Assembly: GCA_027533425.1 (NCBI GenBank)
Contig: JAPZUD010000002.1
Coordinates: 310,001 to 374,000 of the forward strand
From: Beijerinckiaceae bacterium
Lineage (GTDB): Bacteria > Pseudomonadota > Alphaproteobacteria > Rhizobiales > Beijerinckiaceae
Direction: 5' to 3'
Length of the DNA stretch: 64,000 nucleotides
The notes beneath the pieces are model-generated. The model did not search any database, was not told the DNA's origin, and worked only from the letters and a program-made list of their open reading frames with translations. Of this stretch, positions 1,236 through 28,633 are shown in pieces. A program made the position numbers and the translations under genes. Within the stretch, counting starts at the first letter, position 1; every line of letters begins with the position of its first letter.

Positions 1236-4200
1236 ATGCGCGTCGCCCCCCTCCCCTTCCGCGGCTCCCGGTCCGGACGTCTTGCAACGCTCGCCGGCGG
1301 CCTTCTCGGGCTCGGCCTGATGCTGGGCGCGGCATTGGCCCAGACTCCGCAGAAGCCGTTCTCGCGGGATGATCTCGCGACATCCGGTGCCGCGATGGAG
1401 GAGCGGCTCAAGCGCGAGGTGACGCTGCCCGCCAATGCCGAGGTCCAGCGCCTTCTCGCCGCGGGCGAGGCGGCGATGACCCGCAACGATGCCCGGACCG
1501 CCTTGCCGCTGGCGAACCAGGCGGTGCTTGCGGCGCCGTCGAACCCGGCGGCCTGGCGGCTGATGGCCCGGGCAGCGCGCGGCATCACCCCGCGCGACTG
1601 GCGCGAGCGCTATGACCTGCAGGAGCGTGCGGTCAATGCAGCCTATCTCGCGTATCAGCGGTCGCGCAGCCGCGAGGACGAAGCTTCCTCGCTCGGCCTG
1701 CTCGGCCAGATCTTCGAATGGCGGGAAATGTGGCGTCCGGCGCTGACCGCCTACCGGATCAGCCTCGAGGCCAATGACAATGCCGGCATCCGCACGGCCT
1801 ACGAGGCGCTGCGCGAGAAGCGCGGCTTCCGGCTGACCGGCAACGAGGTGGATGCCGATGCCGCCTCGCCGCGCGCCTGCTTCACCTTCTCCGAACCGCT
1901 GGCGCGCGGCCGCGTCGATTTCGCGCCCTATGTCGCGGTATCCGGGCGGGGCGATTTCGCCGTCGTGGCCGAGGACCAGCAGATCTGCGTCGACGGCCTG
2001 CGCCATGGCGAGCGCTATGCCGTGGTGCTGCGCCAGGGCATTCCCTCGGCGATTCCGGGCGAAACCCTGCTCAAGAACGCGGATTACGAGATTTATGTCC
2101 GCGACCGCACGCCTTCGGTCCGCGCCAGCGGCAAGACCTATGTCCTGCCGCGCTCCGGCCAGCAGGGCGTGCCGCTGATCTCGGTCAATACCGACAAGAT
2201 CGGCATCCGCGTGCTGCGGATCGGCGACCGCAACCTGATCAACACGGTGCGCTCCTCCGAGTTCCTCGAACAGATCGACACATCCCAGCTCGACAGGATC
2301 ATCGGCGAGACGGGCCAGCAGGTCTGGCGCGGCACGATGGATGTGAAGAACGAGCTCAACAAGGACGTGACGACCGGTTTTCCGGTGACGGAAGCCACCG
2401 GCAAGCTCGAGCCCGGCGTCTATCTCATCGCGGCGCAGGCCGGCGAGTTCAAGACGGCGAGCGGCGCGACGACGCCGAATGTCGACGGGGATGTCGATAC
2501 CGGCGGCGAGCAGGTGGCGACGCAATGGTTCGTGGTGTCCGATCTCGGCCTGACCGCCTTTTCCGGTCGTGACGGCGTGCATGTGCTGGTGCGCTCGCTC
2601 GCCTCTGCCGAGCCGGTGGCCGATACGGAGATCCGGCTGATCGCCCGGAACAACGAGATCCTCGGCACGGCCCGGACGGATGCGCGCGGCCATGCGAAGT
2701 TCGATGCCGGCCTCTCGCGCGGGGAAGGCGGGCTCGCGCCCGGTCTGGTCACGGCGCAGCTCAAGGAGGATTACGGCTTCCTCGACCTGCAGCAGAGCGC
2801 CTTCGACCTGACCGATCGCGGTGTTTCGGGCCGCGTCGCCCCGACCGGGCTCGACGCGTTCCTCTATGCCGAGCGCGGGGTCTATCGCCCGGGCGAGACG
2901 GTCTATCTCTCCACGCTCCTCCGCGATGCGCGCGGGGCGGCCGTGTCCGGACTGCCGCTGACGCTGGTGGTGCGGCGGCCGGACGGGATGGAATATCGCC
3001 GCTCGGTGGTGGCCGACCAGGGCGCCGGCGGGCGGAGCTGGTCGATCCCGCTCCTCTCCGGCGTGCCGGTGGGCACCTGGCGGATCGCCGCCTATTCCGA
3101 TCCGAAGCGGCCGGCCATCGGCGAGACGACGATCCTCGTCGAGGATTACGTGCCGGAACGGCTGGAGGTGAAGCTCGACAGCCCGGCCAAGGCGATCAAA
3201 TCCGGCGAGAATGCCGAGATCGATGTCGAGGTGCGCTATCTCTACGGCGCCGTGGGCAGCGATCTCTCCGTTTCGGGCGACTGGACGATCCGCCAGGCGG
3301 CAGGCAGCGCGATTCCCGGTTTCGAGGGCTATACGGTCGGGCTGTCGGACGAGACCTTCGAGACGATGCGCAGCGAGTTCGAGGGCACGACGACCGACGA
3401 GGATGGCAAGGCCAAGCTCTCGATCACCCTCACCGAACCGGCCACCACCCTGCCGCTGGAGGCGCAGTTCAACGTGACGGCCTCGGAAACCGGCGGCCGT
3501 GGCGTCGCGCGCTCCATCACCGTGCCGATCGTGCCCAAGGGCGTGGTGATCGGCGTGAAGCCGCTCTTCGGCGATGGCGAGATCGGCGATGGCGGCACGG
3601 CGAAATTCGGCGTGATCATGGCCACGGGCCAGGGCAAGCGCCTGACGAAGCCCGGCCTGAAATGGCAGCTCTCGCGGATCACCCGCAACTACCAGTGGTT
3701 CTTCAAGGAAGGCCGCTGGGCGTATGAATCGATCCGGACCTCCCGCCGCGTGGCGGATGGCGAGGTGGCCGTCTCCGAGACGGCCGTGGCCGAGATCGCC
3801 GCGCGTGTCGGCTGGGGCACCTACCGGCTCGAGGTGCGCAGCAGCGGCGCCGACGATGCCGAGACGGCGCATACCTTCACCGTCGGCTATGTCGCCGATG
3901 CCAAGGCCGATACGCCGGATGTGCTCGACGTGGCGCTCGACAAGAAAGGCTATGCGGCCGGCGAGACGATGCAGATCCGCCTGAATTCGCGCTTCTCGGG
4001 CAAGGCGACGCTGGCGGTTGTCTCGGACCGGATCGCCCATCTCGAGACGATCGACCTCAAGGAAGGCGGGCAGACAGCCTCGCTCAGGGTCAATGCCGAT
4101 TGGGGCGCCGGCGCCTATCTCACCGTGCTGGCGCATCGCCCGCTCGACGAGGCGGCGAAGCGCATGCCCGGCCGGGCTTTGGGCCTGTCCTGGTTCGGCA

Positions 4201-6536
4201 TCGGGCAGGAAGCGCGCAAGATCGGCGTCGCGCTCAATGCGCCGGCGCAGATGCGGCCGCGCGGCACGCTCTCGCTGCCGATCACGCTCGCCAATCTCAA
4301 GGCCGGCGAGGAGGCCTTCGTCACCGTTGCGGCGGTGGATGTCGGCATCCTCAACCTGACGCGCTACCAGAGCCCGAATGCCACGGCGCATTTCTTCGGC
4401 CAGCGCCAGCTCGCCGGCGATCTGCGCGATCTCTATGGCTACCTGATCGACGGGATGCAGGGCGTGCGCGGCGCGATCCGTTCGGGCGGCGATGCCGCGC
4501 CGGAAGCGAAGGGCGAGAAGCCGACGCAGGAGCCGCTCGCGCGCTATTCGGGTGTCGTCAAGGTCAACCCGGACGGCACCGCCCGGATCGATTTCGAGGT
4601 CCCCGCCTTCAACGGGACTGTCCGGGTGATGGCGGTGGCCTGGAGCGCCGACAAGACCGGCGAGGCCAGCAGCGACGTCATCATCCGCGATCCGATCGTG
4701 GTGCAGGCGACGACGCCGCGCTTCCTCGCATTGGGGGACCGGTCGCAATTCCACATCGAGATCAACAATGTGGAGGGGCAGAACGGGGAGTATATCCTCG
4801 ATGTCGACATGCGCGGGCCGGTTTCGGTCAGCCTTGATCCAGCCCTGCGCAAGATCGCGCTCGAGAAGGGCAAGAAGGTTTCCTTCGCGCTGCCGGTCAT
4901 CGCGGCCGGCTTGGGCCTCGCGGAGCTGGACCTGACCCTGCGCGGGGGGGGCGAAACGCTGCCCCAGACCGTCCGGGTGCAGGTGAAGCCCTCGGCGCCG
5001 AGTATCGTCAACCGCATCGTCCGGCCGCTGCCGGGCGGGCAATCGCTCGAAGTCTCGAGCGAGCTGCTGGCGGATTTCGTGCCGCGTTCCGGCTCGGTCT
5101 CGATCACGGCCTCGCCCTTCGCGGCTCTGGATGTGCCCTCGCTGCTCGCGAGCCTCGACCGCTATCCCTATGGCTGCACCGAGCAGACCGTGAGCCGGGC
5201 CATGCCGCTGCTCTATGTCAACCGGCTGGCCTCCATGGAGCAGCTGCAGCTGGATGACAGCGCCGAGAAGCGGATCGGCGCGGCCATCGAGCGGGTCATC
5301 GCCCGGCAGGGCGCGAATGGCGGCTTCGGCCTCTGGGGCATCGGCGGCGGCGATCTCTGGCTCGATGCCTTCGTGGCCGATTTCCTGACCCGCGCGCGGG
5401 AACAGAATATCGCCGTGCCGCAACTCGCCTTCGGGCTGGCGCTCGACCGCTTGCGCAACCAGGTGGCGAATACCACCGATATCCGGAAGGAAGAGGCGGC
5501 AGGCCTTGCCTATGCCATCTATGTGCTGGCCCGGAACGGGCGCCCGGTCATGGGCGACCTGCGCTATCTCGCCGACAACAAGATCGGCGAGTTCAGCTCG
5601 CCGCTCGCCAAGGGCCAGATCGCCGCGGCGCTCGCCCTGCTGGGAGACCGGGGCCGCGCCGACCGGGTGTTCAACGAGGCGCTGACCGCCATCGGCGCGG
5701 CGGCGGATGACACGATCTTCCGCGACGATTACGGCTCGCGCCTGCGCGACAGTGCCGGCCTGCTGGCCCTGCTGGCCGAGACCAATGCCGAGCGGGCGCG
5801 GATCACCCGCGTGGCCAATGTGCTCGACAATGCCCGTCAGAACCGGCGCTACACCTCCACCCAGGAACAGAACTGGATGGTGCTGGCGGCGCAGGCCCTG
5901 CAGAAGGAAGTGGAGAGCTTCTCCCTCACCGTCGACGGGCAGGAACGGCGCGGCGCCTATTACCGCAATGTCAGCCAGGCGGCGCTGGAGGCGAAGCCCG
6001 TGACCCTGCGCAATAACGGCCAGACCCCGGCCCGCGTGGTTTTGTCGGTTTCCGGCATCCCCACCTCTCCGGCGCCGGCGGTTTCGGAGGGCTTCACCGT
6101 CAAGCGGACGATCCACACGCTCGACGGCGAGGAAGTGCAGCCGGACGAGATCCAGCAGAACGAGCGCTATGCCGTACGGCTGGAGATCACCCAGACCGGC
6201 CGTGCCGGTGCGCGGCTGCTTGTCGTCGACCCCCTTCCCGCCGGGCTGGAGATCGAGAATGCCAAGCTGACCGAGGGCAGCACGGAAGGGCTCGACTTCC
6301 TGAAGTCGGACCTCGTGCCCGAGCATACCGAGGCGCGGGATGACCGGTTCGTCGCCTCGATCACGCTTGCTGATGGTGGCGGCAACACGCCCTTCATCAC
6401 CGGCTATCTCGTCCGGGCGGTGACACCGGGGACCTATGTCCATCCGGCGGCGATCGCCGAGGACATGTACCGGCCCGAACGGTTCGGCCGCACCGCCTTC
6501 GGAACGCTCGCCGTCAAGCCGGCGAAGCGGAACTGA
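1236..6536 (+). CDS. Bacterial alpha-2-macroglobulin with thioester
   Basis: 1766 residues, the usual size for bacterial alpha-2-macroglobulins of the YfhM type, which trap proteases in the periplasm. The ATG at 1236 has GGAG upstream and opens a signal peptide (about residues 1-35, ending ALA|Q). There is no lipobox Cys, unlike the lipoprotein form of E. coli. MG-type beta domains fill most of the length. A bait-like linker rich in small and charged residues lies near 1072-1115. The thioester motif is intact: YGCTEQT with Cys1314 and Gln1317, followed by alpha-helical repeats typical of the thioester domain and a C-terminal receptor-like beta domain. The next gene is pbpC, one base after the stop codon; this pairing is well known and suggests that trapping of proteases that breach the wall is coupled to wall repair. 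Confidence 0.95.
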   Translation: MRVAPLPFRGSRSGRLATLAGGLLGLGLMLGAALAQTPQKPFSRDDLATSGAAMEERLKREVTLPANAEVQRLLAAGEAAMTRNDARTALPLANQAVLAAPSNPAAWRLMARAARGITPRDWRERYDLQERAVNAAYLAYQRSRSREDEASSLGLLGQIFEWREMWRPALTAYRISLEANDNAGIRTAYEALREKRGFRLTGNEVDADAASPRACFTFSEPLARGRVDFAPYVAVSGRGDFAVVAEDQQICVDGLRHGERYAVVLRQGIPSAIPGETLLKNADYEIYVRDRTPSVRASGKTYVLPRSGQQGVPLISVNTDKIGIRVLRIGDRNLINTVRSSEFLEQIDTSQLDRIIGETGQQVWRGTMDVKNELNKDVTTGFPVTEATGKLEPGVYLIAAQAGEFKTASGATTPNVDGDVDTGGEQVATQWFVVSDLGLTAFSGRDGVHVLVRSLASAEPVADTEIRLIARNNEILGTARTDARGHAKFDAGLSRGEGGLAPGLVTAQLKEDYGFLDLQQSAFDLTDRGVSGRVAPTGLDAFLYAERGVYRPGETVYLSTLLRDARGAAVSGLPLTLVVRRPDGMEYRRSVVADQGAGGRSWSIPLLSGVPVGTWRIAAYSDPKRPAIGETTILVEDYVPERLEVKLDSPAKAIKSGENAEIDVEVRYLYGAVGSDLSVSGDWTIRQAAGSAIPGFEGYTVGLSDETFETMRSEFEGTTTDEDGKAKLSITLTEPATTLPLEAQFNVTASETGGRGVARSITVPIVPKGVVIGVKPLFGDGEIGDGGTAKFGVIMATGQGKRLTKPGLKWQLSRITRNYQWFFKEGRWAYESIRTSRRVADGEVAVSETAVAEIAARVGWGTYRLEVRSSGADDAETAHTFTVGYVADAKADTPDVLDVALDKKGYAAGETMQIRLNSRFSGKATLAVVSDRIAHLETIDLKEGGQTASLRVNADWGAGAYLTVLAHRPLDEAAKRMPGRALGLSWFGIGQEARKIGVALNAPAQMRPRGTLSLPITLANLKAGEEAFVTVAAVDVGILNLTRYQSPNATAHFFGQRQLAGDLRDLYGYLIDGMQGVRGAIRSGGDAAPEAKGEKPTQEPLARYSGVVKVNPDGTARIDFEVPAFNGTVRVMAVAWSADKTGEASSDVIIRDPIVVQATTPRFLALGDRSQFHIEINNVEGQNGEYILDVDMRGPVSVSLDPALRKIALEKGKKVSFALPVIAAGLGLAELDLTLRGGGETLPQTVRVQVKPSAPSIVNRIVRPLPGGQSLEVSSELLADFVPRSGSVSITASPFAALDVPSLLASLDRYPYGCTEQTVSRAMPLLYVNRLASMEQLQLDDSAEKRIGAAIERVIARQGANGGFGLWGIGGGDLWLDAFVADFLTRAREQNIAVPQLAFGLALDRLRNQVANTTDIRKEEAAGLAYAIYVLARNGRPVMGDLRYLADNKIGEFSSPLAKGQIAAALALLGDRGRADRVFNEALTAIGAAADDTIFRDDYGSRLRDSAGLLALLAETNAERARITRVANVLDNARQNRRYTSTQEQNWMVLAAQALQKEVESFSLTVDGQERRGAYYRNVSQAALEAKPVTLRNNGQTPARVVLSVSGIPTSPAPAVSEGFTVKRTIHTLDGEEVQPDEIQQNERYAVRLEITQTGRAGARLLVVDPLPAGLEIENAKLTEGSTEGLDFLKSDLVPEHTEARDDRFVASITLADGGGNTPFITGYLVRAVTPGTYVHPAAIAEDMYRPERFGRTAFGTLAVKPAKRN

Positions 6537-25183: not shown

Positions 25184-25214
25184 GGGAAGGCCGGAGCGAT
25201 GCTCCGGCCTTCCC
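25184..25214. terminator. Hairpin shared by two convergent genes
   Basis: GGGAAGGCCGGAGC and GCTCCGGCCTTCCC, 14 perfectly paired bases around GAT, sit between the dehydrogenase stop and the stop of the convergent caspase-fold gene. The plus side continues TTGTTT; the minus side lacks a T-run, so it serves the dehydrogenase best. Confidence 0.75.
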
Positions 25215-25219
25215 TTGTT

Positions 25220-27466
25220 TCAGCAGGCGCCGCGAGCCCTGAGTTCAGGGGTGCATTGCCCGATGGGCGCCGGACGCGGAGCCGGGGCCGGCGGTCGGGC
25301 CGCCGGTGGCGGGGGGGGCGGTGCCGGCCGGGCCCCGGGCGGAGGGGCCGGCGCCGGCGGTGCCGGACGCGCCACGGGCGGGGGCGGCGGTGCCGGCCGG
25401 GCAACCGGCGGTGGCGGGGGCGCGACCGGTCGGGCCGCCGGCGGAGGGGCAGGCGGTACAGGTCGGGCCACAGGCGGCGGCGCGGGTGGCGGGACGGGCC
25501 TTGCCTGCGGCGGCGGGGCCGAGGGCGGCGGGGCCGCACCAGGCGGCCGCGGCACCGGCCGGAATTGCGGCGGCGGCTCTCCCGGACCCGGCCGCGGTGG
25601 CACAGGACGGAATTGCGGTGGCGGGCTCTGCGGCGGCGGCGCCCCGATCGGCCTCGGCGCCTGCGGTGCCGCCGGCGGAGTGACGGCCGGTGGGGTAGCA
25701 ACCGGCGGCGGCGCGGCAGGACGAGGAACCGCACCCGGTTGCGAGGGTGGCGGTGTGCCGACAGGCCGCGGTGCCGGCGGGCTGGTTGGCCGGATTGCCC
25801 CCGGCGGCGTGCCAACGGGCGGGGATACGACCGGAGCTGTTGCTCCCGGTGGGCGAGTGCCCGGCGGAACAGCCGGCGGAGGGGTCGGGCCGCCGGTCGG
25901 CGGTGTCACAGGCCCCTGCCCGATCGGGCGCGTCGGGTTGCCGACAGGTAGGCCAACGGGTGGCGGAACGCCAACCGGGCGGGTGCCGGGGCGCGGCGGC
26001 GGCGGCAGCACCGTGCCCGGCGGCAGGACGGAAGGACGCGGCGGACGCGGCGGCGGAGCCACAGCCGGGCGGACCTCGCGCGGGCGGCGCCATTCGCGGT
26101 TGGCCCAGATCGCGGCGCCGACAACGCCGGCCCCGACAATCGCGGCGCCGATCCCCACCGAAGGCAACGTGCGGGCCTGCGGGTTGGGCGGCGGCGGCGG
26201 CAATTCGATGATCTCGACCGGCGGCGGCGGCAGGAGATGCACGGCATAGCCGGAGGGCGGCGGCAGCACGTCCCAGCGCTCCTCGATCACCACGGTTTCA
26301 TAGACCTCGATCTCCTCGATATCCGGCGGCGGCAGGTCTTCGTAGATGATCTCGTCGAATTGCGGTGGCGGTACGATCGGCGCCGAGAGGCGCGTCAGGC
26401 GGGCCTGCGCCTCGACCGCATGGGCACCGCGCGGATAGCGACGGAGATAGGACCAGTAGGCCCGGTCGGTATTCGTGCGGCGGGCGCGTTGCCAGTAGAA
26501 GGCTTCGCGCCGCGTGGCGACCATGGCCCGGACGCGCCGTGCCTGCGCATGACGCGGATAGGCGCCGAGGAATTCCTCGTAGGCGGCAATCGTGTCGATC
26601 TCGACGGCGCGGGCATAGGCCTCGTCACCCGGCAATTCCCGGATCGGGCGGGCCCGCTTGGCCTCGAGCGCCACCGCGGCGGCTGGCGCGGCCGTTCCCG
26701 GGAACAGCACGACGGGCTGGCCCAGCCCGTTGATGTCCCAGGGCGTTTCCACGCCTTGGCTCAGATCGTGCGTGCGGAGGCGGATGCGCTCGAACATCGC
26801 GCCCAGATCGATTCCCGGCTCGCGCAGGACTTCGGCCAACGCCATGGCATAATGGCCGTAACTGGTGGCTGGCAGCGGCGAGACGCGGTCCGGCGCCTGG
26901 TTGTAGGCCACAAGCATGCCCTCGCGCCGTTCGCCGGCAGCGAAACCCCGCGCGCCTTCGCCGGTCAGCTGGCCATAGGGATGGGTATAGGCGGCATCGA
27001 GAATGACAACCCGGCCGGCAGCGGGGATGGCGCCGATGGTGCGGATCAGATCGTTGATCCGGATCCCCTCGAGCGCGAGATCGGCCCGCTGGCGGAGACG
27101 GGCATCGACAGGAATGAGCAGGTTCTCGCCATCATCCTGGAAGCCGATGCCGGAAACATAGACCGCGATCAGCGCATCCGGGCCGGCCGCCTGCGCCTTC
27201 TCGGTGAAATCCCGGAAGGTCGTACGGAACTCTGTCTGGTTGAGGTTGGCGGATTCGGTCAGCTCGAAGCCGGCCTGCCGGAGGCTCTGCGCCACCAGCC
27301 CGGCATCCTGCAGGGCGGTCGGATGTTTGACCTCGCCATAATCGGCAAGGCCGATGACGAGGCCGAGCCGTTTGCCTTGCGCCATCGCGCCGGCGGGCAG
27401 CACGAAGAGGGCAATTGTCAGGATGACCCTGATCCAGCCGCGATCCCGGGGGGAACGATCATTCAT
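25220..27466 (-). CDS. Caspase-fold pseudoprotease with transmembrane helix and proline-rich tail
   Basis: 748 residues from the ATG at 27466 (AAAGGAGA upstream). Residues 1-29 are a signal peptide. Residues 32-260 are a C14 caspase-like fold: KRLGLVIGLADY, then ALIAVYVSGIGF, ENLLIPVDARL and RVVILDAAYTHPY. The catalytic His of the usual SGHG is Ile107 and the Cys of the usual DACR is Ala159, so proteolysis is not expected. Residues 280-360 hold two related helical repeats (AYEEFLGAYPRHAQA and AYWSYLRRYPRGAHA). A hydrophobic helix (436-454) follows, then about 270 residues of Pro-rich sequence ending in a short segment with two Cys. It probably acts as a membrane-tethered scaffold; topology with both a cleaved signal and an internal helix puts the fold in the periplasm. 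Confidence 0.85.
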   Translation of the reverse strand: MNDRSPRDRGWIRVILTIALFVLPAGAMAQGKRLGLVIGLADYGEVKHPTALQDAGLVAQSLRQAGFELTESANLNQTEFRTTFRDFTEKAQAAGPDALIAVYVSGIGFQDDGENLLIPVDARLRQRADLALEGIRINDLIRTIGAIPAAGRVVILDAAYTHPYGQLTGEGARGFAAGERREGMLVAYNQAPDRVSPLPATSYGHYAMALAEVLREPGIDLGAMFERIRLRTHDLSQGVETPWDINGLGQPVVLFPGTAAPAAAVALEAKRARPIRELPGDEAYARAVEIDTIAAYEEFLGAYPRHAQARRVRAMVATRREAFYWQRARRTNTDRAYWSYLRRYPRGAHAVEAQARLTRLSAPIVPPPQFDEIIYEDLPPPDIEEIEVYETVVIEERWDVLPPPSGYAVHLLPPPPVEIIELPPPPPNPQARTLPSVGIGAAIVGAGVVGAAIWANREWRRPREVRPAVAPPPRPPRPSVLPPGTVLPPPPRPGTRPVGVPPPVGLPVGNPTRPIGQGPVTPPTGGPTPPPAVPPGTRPPGATAPVVSPPVGTPPGAIRPTSPPAPRPVGTPPPSQPGAVPRPAAPPPVATPPAVTPPAAPQAPRPIGAPPPQSPPPQFRPVPPRPGPGEPPPQFRPVPRPPGAAPPPSAPPPQARPVPPPAPPPVARPVPPAPPPAARPVAPPPPPVARPAPPPPPVARPAPPAPAPPPGARPAPPPPPPAARPPAPAPRPAPIGQCTPELRARGAC
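25262..26071 (-). repeat. Low-complexity proline-rich coding repeat
   Basis: This stretch encodes the tail of the caspase-fold protein. It is dominated by CCG/CCC/CCT and GCC/CGG codons and is much richer in G+C than its flanks. Irregular units such as ARPVPPPAPPP, ARPAPPPPP and QFRPVPP recur. It is prone to slippage, so length may vary among strains and assembly errors are possible here. Confidence 0.85.
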
Positions 27467-27554
27467 CGCGATCTCCTTTGCTCGGGCAGAGTCTGTGATG
27501 GCGCCTAAACCTGCGCTGAATGCACGATGGCTAAAGAAAGGCAGGTCCCTTGGG

Positions 27555-28019
27555 TCAGCGGCCGACCTGCGCGAGCGCCCGCAGGCGATCTGCCGGGCGG
27601 CTGGCCAGCAGGTCATCGCAGGACCAGCGCCGACCGCCATCGCCATGATCCTTGGGATTGCCCTTCTCAATCGTCGCCAGGGCATTGAGCCGGCCGGTAT
27701 CCGCCACTTTCAGGGCGAGATTGTTGCCGTTGCGCTCGACCGTGAAGCAATAGGTCCGCCGGTCCTTGGCCGGCCCGTAATGATAGCAGACCTTGTCGCC
27801 ATCGGTGTTCCAGCAGGCATCGACATTCAGCGTCAGCCCGTTATCGCCCAGAGCCCGGCCATCCGGAGCGTGATACTCGCTGAACGGGCCGCCGGTGACA
27901 TAATGCCCGGCCACCGTGTTGCCGGTGAACAGCTCGCGGATCTGGGCGCCGGTGAGCATCTCGGACCGGGCCGGGAGGGCCAGCACGAGCATCAGCGCCA
28001 GGGCAAGGAAGGGCCGCAT
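27555..28019 (-). CDS. Small secreted protein of unknown function
   Basis: 154 residues from the ATG at 28019, which follows the GST stop codon by two bases (TGACGATG), implying translational coupling; the longer frame to 28052 overlaps GST. Residues 1-20 are a signal peptide (MRPFLALALMLVLALP). The mature part has MLTGAQIRELFTGNTVAGHY, EYHAPDGRALG and a CWNTDGDKVCYHY segment with two Cys, then a third and fourth Cys (TYCF, SCDDLL), which suggests disulfides in the periplasm. I have seen similar small secreted proteins in alphaproteobacteria but know no function. Confidence 0.75.
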   Translation of the reverse strand: MRPFLALALMLVLALPARSEMLTGAQIRELFTGNTVAGHYVTGGPFSEYHAPDGRALGDNGLTLNVDACWNTDGDKVCYHYGPAKDRRTYCFTVERNGNNLALKVADTGRLNALATIEKGNPKDHGDGGRRWSCDDLLASRPADRLRALAQVGR

Positions 28020-28021
28020 CG

Positions 28022-28633
28022 TCAGGCCTGCGCAGAGGGGCGCGCCGAGCATTCGGCATGCCAGCGGGCGAGATGGGCCAGATCAGCCGGAACGGCGATG
28101 CGGGCGGGTTTGAGAAAATCGATCGTCACGAGCGCGGTGATGTCGGCGATGGAGTATTCATCGCCCGCAAAATAGCGATGGCCGGCGAGATGGTCATTGA
28201 GCAGGCGCAAGGTTTCGAGCGCCCGGCCCCGATTCACCTCGGCCCATTGCGCGATCTGCGGCACTTCGTGGTTCGCCATGCCCGGATGGCCATGCCGGAA
28301 GGCGGCCTGGCCCTGGCTGTAGAGTTCCAGCTCGATCCGGCGGTTCCACATCTCGACGCGGGCACGCCCCAGCGCGCCGGTGCCGAAAAGCGGCCTTTCG
28401 GGCTGGATTTCCTCGAAATAGCGGCAGATCGCGACCGATTCGGTCAGGACCGTGCCATCATCGAGCTCAAGGACAGGCACCCGCTGGAACGGATTGCGCT
28501 GGGTGAACTCGGCGGATTTGTGCTCCATTTTTCCGAGATCAACCGGCACAAGCGGCACAGACATGCCCTTCTCCGCCAGAAACACCCGCACGCGCCGCGC
28601 ATTCGGCACGCGCCCGCCATCGAACAAGCGCAT
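28022..28633 (-). CDS. Glutathione S-transferase family protein
   Basis: 203 residues from the ATG at 28633, with GGAGG upstream; the earlier ATG at 28672 lacks a good site. The N-terminal thioredoxin-like domain starts MRLFDGGRVPNARRVRVFLAEKG and has the glutathione-binding QRVPVLELDDGTVLTESVAICRY. The C-terminal helical domain contains YSIADITALVTIDF, the N-capping box and hydrophobic staple of GSTs. It is a cytosolic enzyme that probably conjugates or reduces glutathione adducts; substrate unknown. It precedes and is coupled to the small secreted protein gene. Confidence 0.9.
   Translation of the reverse strand: MRLFDGGRVPNARRVRVFLAEKGMSVPLVPVDLGKMEHKSAEFTQRNPFQRVPVLELDDGTVLTESVAICRYFEEIQPERPLFGTGALGRARVEMWNRRIELELYSQGQAAFRHGHPGMANHEVPQIAQWAEVNRGRALETLRLLNDHLAGHRYFAGDEYSIADITALVTIDFLKPARIAVPADLAHLARWHAECSARPSAQA

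Follow-up and report, generated by a model that had tools for sequence, protein, structure and literature searches.

The 748-residue protein encoded on the minus strand at positions 25220 to 27466 of the window (the whole 64,000-nucleotide stretch of DNA that was analysed) is a pseudo-orthocaspase, of a kind described in 2019 (PMC6426788). It contains a p20 domain in which the catalytic His/Cys pair is replaced and two pocket Asp residues are kept, and it lacks the His/Cys pair of an active C14 orthocaspase. The definition in the same source includes the absence of a p10 domain (PMC6426788); in the window protein, the PF00656 match continues past the catalytic Cys column as far as aa 243, and the structural model aligns with MALT1 over residues 1-228. 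We tentatively read this protein as an exported, non-cutting binding or scaffold protein on the envelope side that acts alone, an interpretation to which we give slightly less than an even chance.

The frame read from 27466 to 25220, which the original prediction had taken to encode a catalytically dead C14 caspase, is a real gene, with a PF00656 match and with Ile107 and Ala159 at the catalytic columns. Our literature search returned no study of the 748-aa protein itself. The features of the locus are as follows.

25220..27466, minus strand: pseudo-orthocaspase gene, 748 aa plus stop (open frame and translation)
27473..27479, minus strand: Shine-Dalgarno-like AAAGGAG, 6 nt 5' of the ATG (read by eye)
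27380..27466, minus strand: signal peptide-like segment, aa 1-29, with a hydrophobic core and A-M-A before Gln30 (hydropathy and sequence; cleavage site by eye)
26738..27370, minus strand: caspase (p20-type) domain, aa 33-243 (PF00656, model and MALT1 match)
27305..27307, minus strand: Asp54, equivalent to MALT1 Asp365 of the arginine pocket (profile alignment with MALT1)
27146..27148, minus strand: Ile107, at the catalytic His position (alignment with His/Cys homologs)
26996..26998, minus strand: Asp157, equivalent to MALT1 Asp462 of the arginine pocket (profile alignment with MALT1)
26990..26992, minus strand: Ala159, at the catalytic Cys position (alignment with His/Cys homologs)
26387..26620, minus strand: helical repeat region, aa 283-360, YxxFLxxYP / AYWxYLxRYPxGxHA (conservation and model helices)
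26105..26164, minus strand: hydrophobic Gly/Ala/Val stretch, aa 435-454, uncertain as a membrane helix (hydropathy)
25262..26098, minus strand: Pro/Arg/Ala tail, aa 457-735, 46% Pro
25223..25255, minus strand: C-terminal CTPELRARGAC, aa 738-748, with Cys738 and Cys748 (translation and alignment)
25184..25214, no strand assigned: weak terminator-like hairpin between convergent genes (1 found against a shuffle mean of 0.7)
27555..28052, minus strand: small exported-looking protein directly upstream, a possibly co-transcribed neighbor (tblastn)

Caspase fold and helical repeats

MALT1 is an active human protease with a His/Cys pair and Ig domains, and its paracaspase domain has the closest solved fold to that of the window protein. 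An AlphaFold2 model of aa 30-368, built with 50 homologs, reached a mean pLDDT of 91.5 and a pTM of 0.88 and matched MALT1 (3uo8_C) best among solved structures (Z 25.3, rmsd 3.0, 212 aligned residues, 16% identity), ruling out that the caspase fold is absent. A profile search of solved structures likewise placed MALT1 first (E 6.6e-8) and also retrieved caspases; a single-sequence search of the same structures, at E up to 0.01, gave no match. In Pfam, Peptidase_C14 (PF00656) covers aa 33-243 with an E-value of 2.3e-18 and 67.2 bits against a cut-off of 21.4, and the sole NCBIfam match was a caspase one scoring 24.9 bits, below its threshold of 140. When the whole protein was searched against Pfam at E up to 1, Peptidase_C14 was the only hit, and there was thus no Ig-like domain, a paracaspase trait, beside the caspase domain.

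Helices follow the caspase domain in the aa 30-368 model, and conservation and model together bear out the two helical repeats that had been noted at about aa 283-360. Conservation in the repeats slightly exceeds that in the caspase domain (mean entropy 1.43 vs 1.63), and in Pfam, at E up to 1, they gave only weak matches to YfiO (7/51) and TPR_16 (6/51). A full-length model from 21 sequences had a mean pLDDT of 66.6 and a pTM of 0.59.

Absence of the catalytic pair across relatives

The alignment comprised 148 judgeable rows, namely 125 pseudo rows (window included) and 23 His/Cys rows; duplicate loci (L001, L002, L032-L045, L062 and L063), identical open reading frames and one row blank at the pair were left out, and one gene is counted twice among the 125, at two lengths (L019 and L073). 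Not one of the 125 pseudo rows has the full pair. The Cys position, which is Cys in all 23 His/Cys rows, is Ala in 110 pseudo rows and otherwise Ser (5), Gly (5), Thr (2), Glu (1), Pro (1) or Asn (1). The His position is far more varied, with Tyr in 45 rows, Arg in 39, Leu in 12, Ile in 9, His in 6, Val in 5, Gln in 4, Glu in 2 and three others; for conservation across the pseudo rows it comes 255th of 339 columns. Ile, Val or Leu stands there in 15/15 rows from the genus of the window's genome, compared to 11/110 other pseudo rows, in which Tyr and Arg predominate. As to whether Ile107 and Ala159 are conserved, the absence of the catalytic Cys applies family-wide, but Ile107 itself varies, and the Ile/Val/Leu preference is local to the genus.

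A quick unrooted tree of 92 rows (pairwise identity below 72%, at least 200 letters, the two catalytic columns removed) splits 16 His/Cys rows from 76 pseudo rows by one change with an SH-aLRT of 99, the His/Cys rows being few; such homologs are under-sampled because relatives were taken from the top of hit lists. For the His position the same tree requires a minimum of 22 changes. Four rows (L150, L153, L156 and L157) form a distant Leu-Ala group, three of which (L150, L153 and L156) cluster on one long branch.

Comparison with three close relatives gave caspase-domain dN/dS values of 0.055, 0.027 and 0.088, and comparison with three more distant ones, at dS 0.9-1.2, gave 0.167, 0.252 and 0.296. 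We conclude that the gene is under purifying selection, judged against these six genus-level relatives. A lone mutation or a decaying gene is ruled out by the 0/125 rows with the pair, the single tree branch and this selection, and the pseudoprotease assignment, which rests on the modeled caspase fold as well, is supported.

Proline-rich tail, terminal cysteines and topology

The long proline tail and the small two-Cys end segment were both described correctly: the tail occupies aa 457-735, and Cys738 and Cys748 are the only Cys residues of the protein. Tail length varies across the family, with some 300-550 residues in most complete members. The full-length model has low confidence over the tail, with block means mostly of 30-55 pLDDT, a result that does not prove disorder. 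In the window protein, 24 of the 27 Arg/Lys residues of the tail precede Pro, compared to a mean of 12.4 in shuffled tails (0/2000 as high); tandem repeats in the tail DNA inflate this count, and the excess may stem from tandem duplication. In 98 family tails 1233 of 2802 Arg/Lys residues precede Pro compared to 750 expected from Pro content. Arg/Lys-Pro bonds resist trypsin-like enzymes.

For counts of tail cysteines we excluded members truncated at a contig end and those whose tails are very short, which left 60 of the 80 named loci and 96 of the 125 members of the larger set. Two Cys residues were found in 49 of the 60 tails, none in 10 and seven in 1, and in 48 of the 60 a Cys pair lies within the last 25 residues. 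Among the 96, 60 tails have two, 31 none, 0 a single one and 5 at least three; these five Cys-rich tails, counted apart, hold 3, 13, 19, 37 and 39. The members of the Leu-Ala group have 13 (L150), 19 (L153), 39 (L156) and 37 (L157). Of the 60 two-Cys tails, 59 terminate in the pair, the exception being L017, and a single tail Cys occurs in L005 and L123, both cut by contig ends and excluded.

Terminal pairing is rare among His/Cys homologs (1/23). Two tail Cys residues somewhere are found in 12/23, and an even number is therefore not special, since these 12 have exactly two, elsewhere. Nor is the pair essential, as 10/60 named and 31/96 sampled complete members have no tail Cys. The tree requires a minimum of 10 shifts between the two states, two or none, and branches with good support account for 5 of them as forced; a two-or-none pattern could arise without a disulfide, since losing the end segment would delete both residues at once. 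In a terminal alignment of 21 sequences, whose 20 homologs were hand-picked and all come from pair-bearing members, the first Cys is invariant and the second is conserved in at least 90%. Over the last residues of the full-length model the pLDDT climbs to 66, and a short helix separates the two Cys residues.

We scanned 5906 open reading frames at the 80 named loci for the tail-Cys pattern and obtained 50 matches, 43 of which are the caspase gene under a rough position rule; of the other seven, three (L201, L213 and L239) resemble caspase tails and four look incidental. A similar scan of the window found the pattern in no gene but that of the pseudo-orthocaspase.

An internal membrane helix had also been proposed, at a place that we locate to aa 435-454. 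The best 19-residue hydropathy of this stretch is 2.01, and a window of at least 1.6 is present there in 14/15 genus rows, supporting the hydrophobic stretch as such. However, such a window is missing in 53 of the 96 complete members of the wider set, and the full-length model has only a four-residue helix at the end of the stretch, with the pLDDT falling from 59 to about 31. A membrane helix at aa 435-454 is thus uncertain. If the stretch did cross the membrane, the tail would be inside, because positive charges follow aa 454. The terminal Cys pair suggests a disulfide, and hence an extracytoplasmic tail end; the periplasm-spanning tail of the original prediction is a candidate topology.

The substrate cleft and possible function

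Asp54 and Asp157 of the window protein align with D365 and D462 of MALT1, in a numbering for which we take the aligned Cys to be Cys464; the third MALT1 anchor, E500, falls outside the profile alignment. Asp54 is Asp in 125/125 pseudo and 23/23 His/Cys rows; at Asp157 one pseudo row has a gap, and the other 124, like 23/23 His/Cys rows, all have Asp. Both positions belong to the twelve columns, out of 339, that never vary. Other cleft residues are nearly as constant across the pseudo rows (Tyr103 in 124/125, Gly106 in 123/125 and Gln110 in 121/125). In MALT1, D365 and D462 hold the P1 arginine, according to the accessible part of PMC4626109, and pseudo-orthocaspases keep two Asp residues of the specificity pocket in the corresponding part of PMC6426788. 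The ligand-sensing role raised in the original prediction may be right, and the invariant Asp pair helps it; the pair may also persist for folding alone, because it is just as invariant in the 23/23 His/Cys rows.

In the reading that we tentatively prefer, the pseudo-orthocaspase would no longer cut, its old substrate cleft would be kept as a binding site, probably for protein segments containing Arg or Lys, and the helical repeats could provide a second contact surface. The flexible tail would lie outside the inner membrane, and in many members a small disulfide-closed tail end might anchor the protein to, or contact, another part of the envelope. On this view the protein would work by itself, tethering or scaffolding within the envelope, and would not regulate an active caspase. 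A more specific version strikes us as improbable: in the Beijerinckiaceae and in Bradyrhizobium, Afipia and Rhodopseudomonas relatives, a conversion that perhaps happened a single time would have made a death-protease fold into an exported receptor that binds basic protein segments without cutting them. With a disordered Pro tether attached, ending in many members in a disulfide hook, it would form a chromosomally placed device for tethering in the envelope.

The main competitor, which we consider unlikely though well ahead of the other alternatives, is that the protein has a structural job in the envelope, with the tail or the repeats as its working parts, a caspase domain that is no more than a stable fold and a cleft that binds nothing. 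It would account for the His position being among the freer columns, for repeats that are better conserved than the caspase domain and for long tails in the sampled lineages; the near-invariance of the Asp pair, Tyr103, Gly106 and Gln110 in the cleft argues against it.

A regulator or decoy, pairing with a His/Cys paralog or competing for its substrates in the manner of FLIP(L), has precedents in cFLIP(L) and Trypanosoma TbMC4 (accessible part of PMC6426788), and 3 of the 15 genus carriers do have further C14 genes, those of G009 and G010 with an intact His/Cys pair and the third in G006. With no second C14 match in the window's genome and a sole C14 gene in 12/15 genus carriers, we disfavor this explanation and regard it as very unlikely. 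The intact His/Cys homologs of G009 and G010 are L161, L162 and L163.

A part in the photosynthetic apparatus or its assembly follows a 2019 proposal for pseudo-orthocaspases: the accessible text reports pseudo-variants in phototrophic orders and ties the alphaproteobacterial ones to phototrophy (PMC6426788), and the window's genome has reaction-centre genes. Two Photo_RC matches lie in this genome (G000) at C5:106471-108172. Reaction-centre genes are present in 10/17 genus genomes, and the caspase gene occurs in 9 of these 10 and in 6 of the 7 genomes without them. In the family sample, reaction-centre genes were found in 42/120 genomes with a strong caspase match vs 35/128 without (Fisher p 0.22), a comparison in which relatedness is uncorrected, the strong match (E up to 1e-40) is a clade proxy and two 248-genome samples are taken as the same. 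The photosynthesis link is accordingly unsupported at species level in this family, and we give it hardly any weight. No more credible is an enzyme that uses other chemistry through residues other than His/Cys, which could draw on the conserved polar cleft residues Y103, Q110 and D157 but has no conserved nucleophile at the Cys position (Ala in 110/125 rows, Ser/Thr in only 7) and no Cys anywhere in the window protein except the two at the tail end.

Relation to known pseudo-caspases

The closest known group is that of the Tyr-Ala/Tyr-Ser pseudo-orthocaspases of Rhizobiales (Klemencic et al., 2019, PMC6426788), which, in the accessible part of that paper, resemble the window protein in having a p20 fold without His/Cys, in keeping the Asp pair, in being alphaproteobacterial and in having a C-terminus that is mostly prolonged without an identifiable domain. 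In contrast, the Ile, Val or Leu found at the His position in this genus, and the Arg found there in 39/125 rows, are not among the pairs named in that part, which also does not mention a terminal Cys pair or helical repeats for the Tyr-Ala/Tyr-Ser group; it ties alphaproteobacterial pseudo-orthocaspases to phototrophy (PMC6426788), whereas we find no such tie at species level. Another dead orthocaspase, SyOC from Synechocystis, was studied by knock-out; unlike the window protein it is cyanobacterial, and its deletion raised oxidative-stress tolerance (accessible part of PMC7889975). MALT1 (3uo8, 3v4o), for which caspase-Ig3 constructs are named, shares the closest solved fold and the arginine-pocket Asp pair, but it keeps the His/Cys pair and Ig domains, neither of which the window protein has. 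The human pseudo-caspase FLIP(L) (PMC7586951) also works without catalysis; it acts with caspase-8, whereas the window's genome has no other C14 gene.

In the accessible part of the 2019 survey, 858 of 9,994 bacterial orthocaspases are dead and no molecular role is given for the alphaproteobacterial ones (PMC6426788). The novel features are the unusual residues where the catalytic pair would stand and the frequent Cys pair that ends the Pro tail. The group offers a clean case, with the sole C14 gene in 12/15 genus carriers, relatives in Bradyrhizobium, Rhodopseudomonas and Microvirga, and clearly delimited parts (the cleft Asp pair, the repeats, the tail and the terminal cysteines). The results also weaken, at species level and in one family, the tie between pseudo-orthocaspases and photosynthesis.

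Distribution and genomic neighborhood

Fifteen of 17 genomes of the genus, the window's own included, carry the gene, and of the two without it, G011 is only 78% complete. In the family sample, 120/248 genomes have a strong match (E up to 1e-40), and in the order sample 48/297 genomes from 16/122 genera have a match, some at only 29-34% identity. Scanning named genomes yielded 498 related stretches, of which we analysed the best 80. These include Microvirga, Chelatococcus, Methylocella, Methylocapsa, Alsobacter, Afipia, Rhodopseudomonas and Bradyrhizobium, and the genus-named relative closest to the window protein among the best 80 of 498 is that of Rhabdaerophilum sp. SD176 (96% in aa 30-368), which makes this genus, or a neighboring one, the very likely source of the window. 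A published transcript table for Bradyrhizobium has an entry, bll3611, annotated as a 'caspase family protein'. Two family copies, G205:C215:7871-8866 and G260:C1:3191661-3192659, have one in-frame TGA and may be broken.

The convergent downstream neighbor is a 3-hydroxyisobutyrate-dehydrogenase-like gene, and a close homolog of this dehydrogenase lies downstream of the caspase gene in 21/80 named loci. The small exported-looking protein encoded upstream (27555-28052), which has several Cys residues and no Pfam match, recurs by tblastn in 13/80 named loci, the 13 most similar (L164-L176), and in these 13 a glutathione transferase gene, found in 2/67 others as well, also lies upstream in the same orientation. 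In Bradyrhizobium, Afipia and Rhodopseudomonas loci the caspase gene has other neighbors, and by eye their sequences read as DNA polymerase III alpha on one flank and as ribosomal protein S2 on the opposite one. No partner gene recurred across all lineages in 28 hand-chosen loci of the 80, with open reading frames called by a crude codon-position score; an operon partner is rejected, the neighbors being ordinary and differing between lineages.

One of 24 pattern stretches in IMG/VR encodes a relative (38%). This 773-aa protein (L244, IMGVR_UViG_3300041809_003036, 2902-5223) ends in CGKPGEPPCPK, and its gene adjoins the same dehydrogenase gene as on chromosomes; we reject a phage link, and the stretch is probably host DNA.
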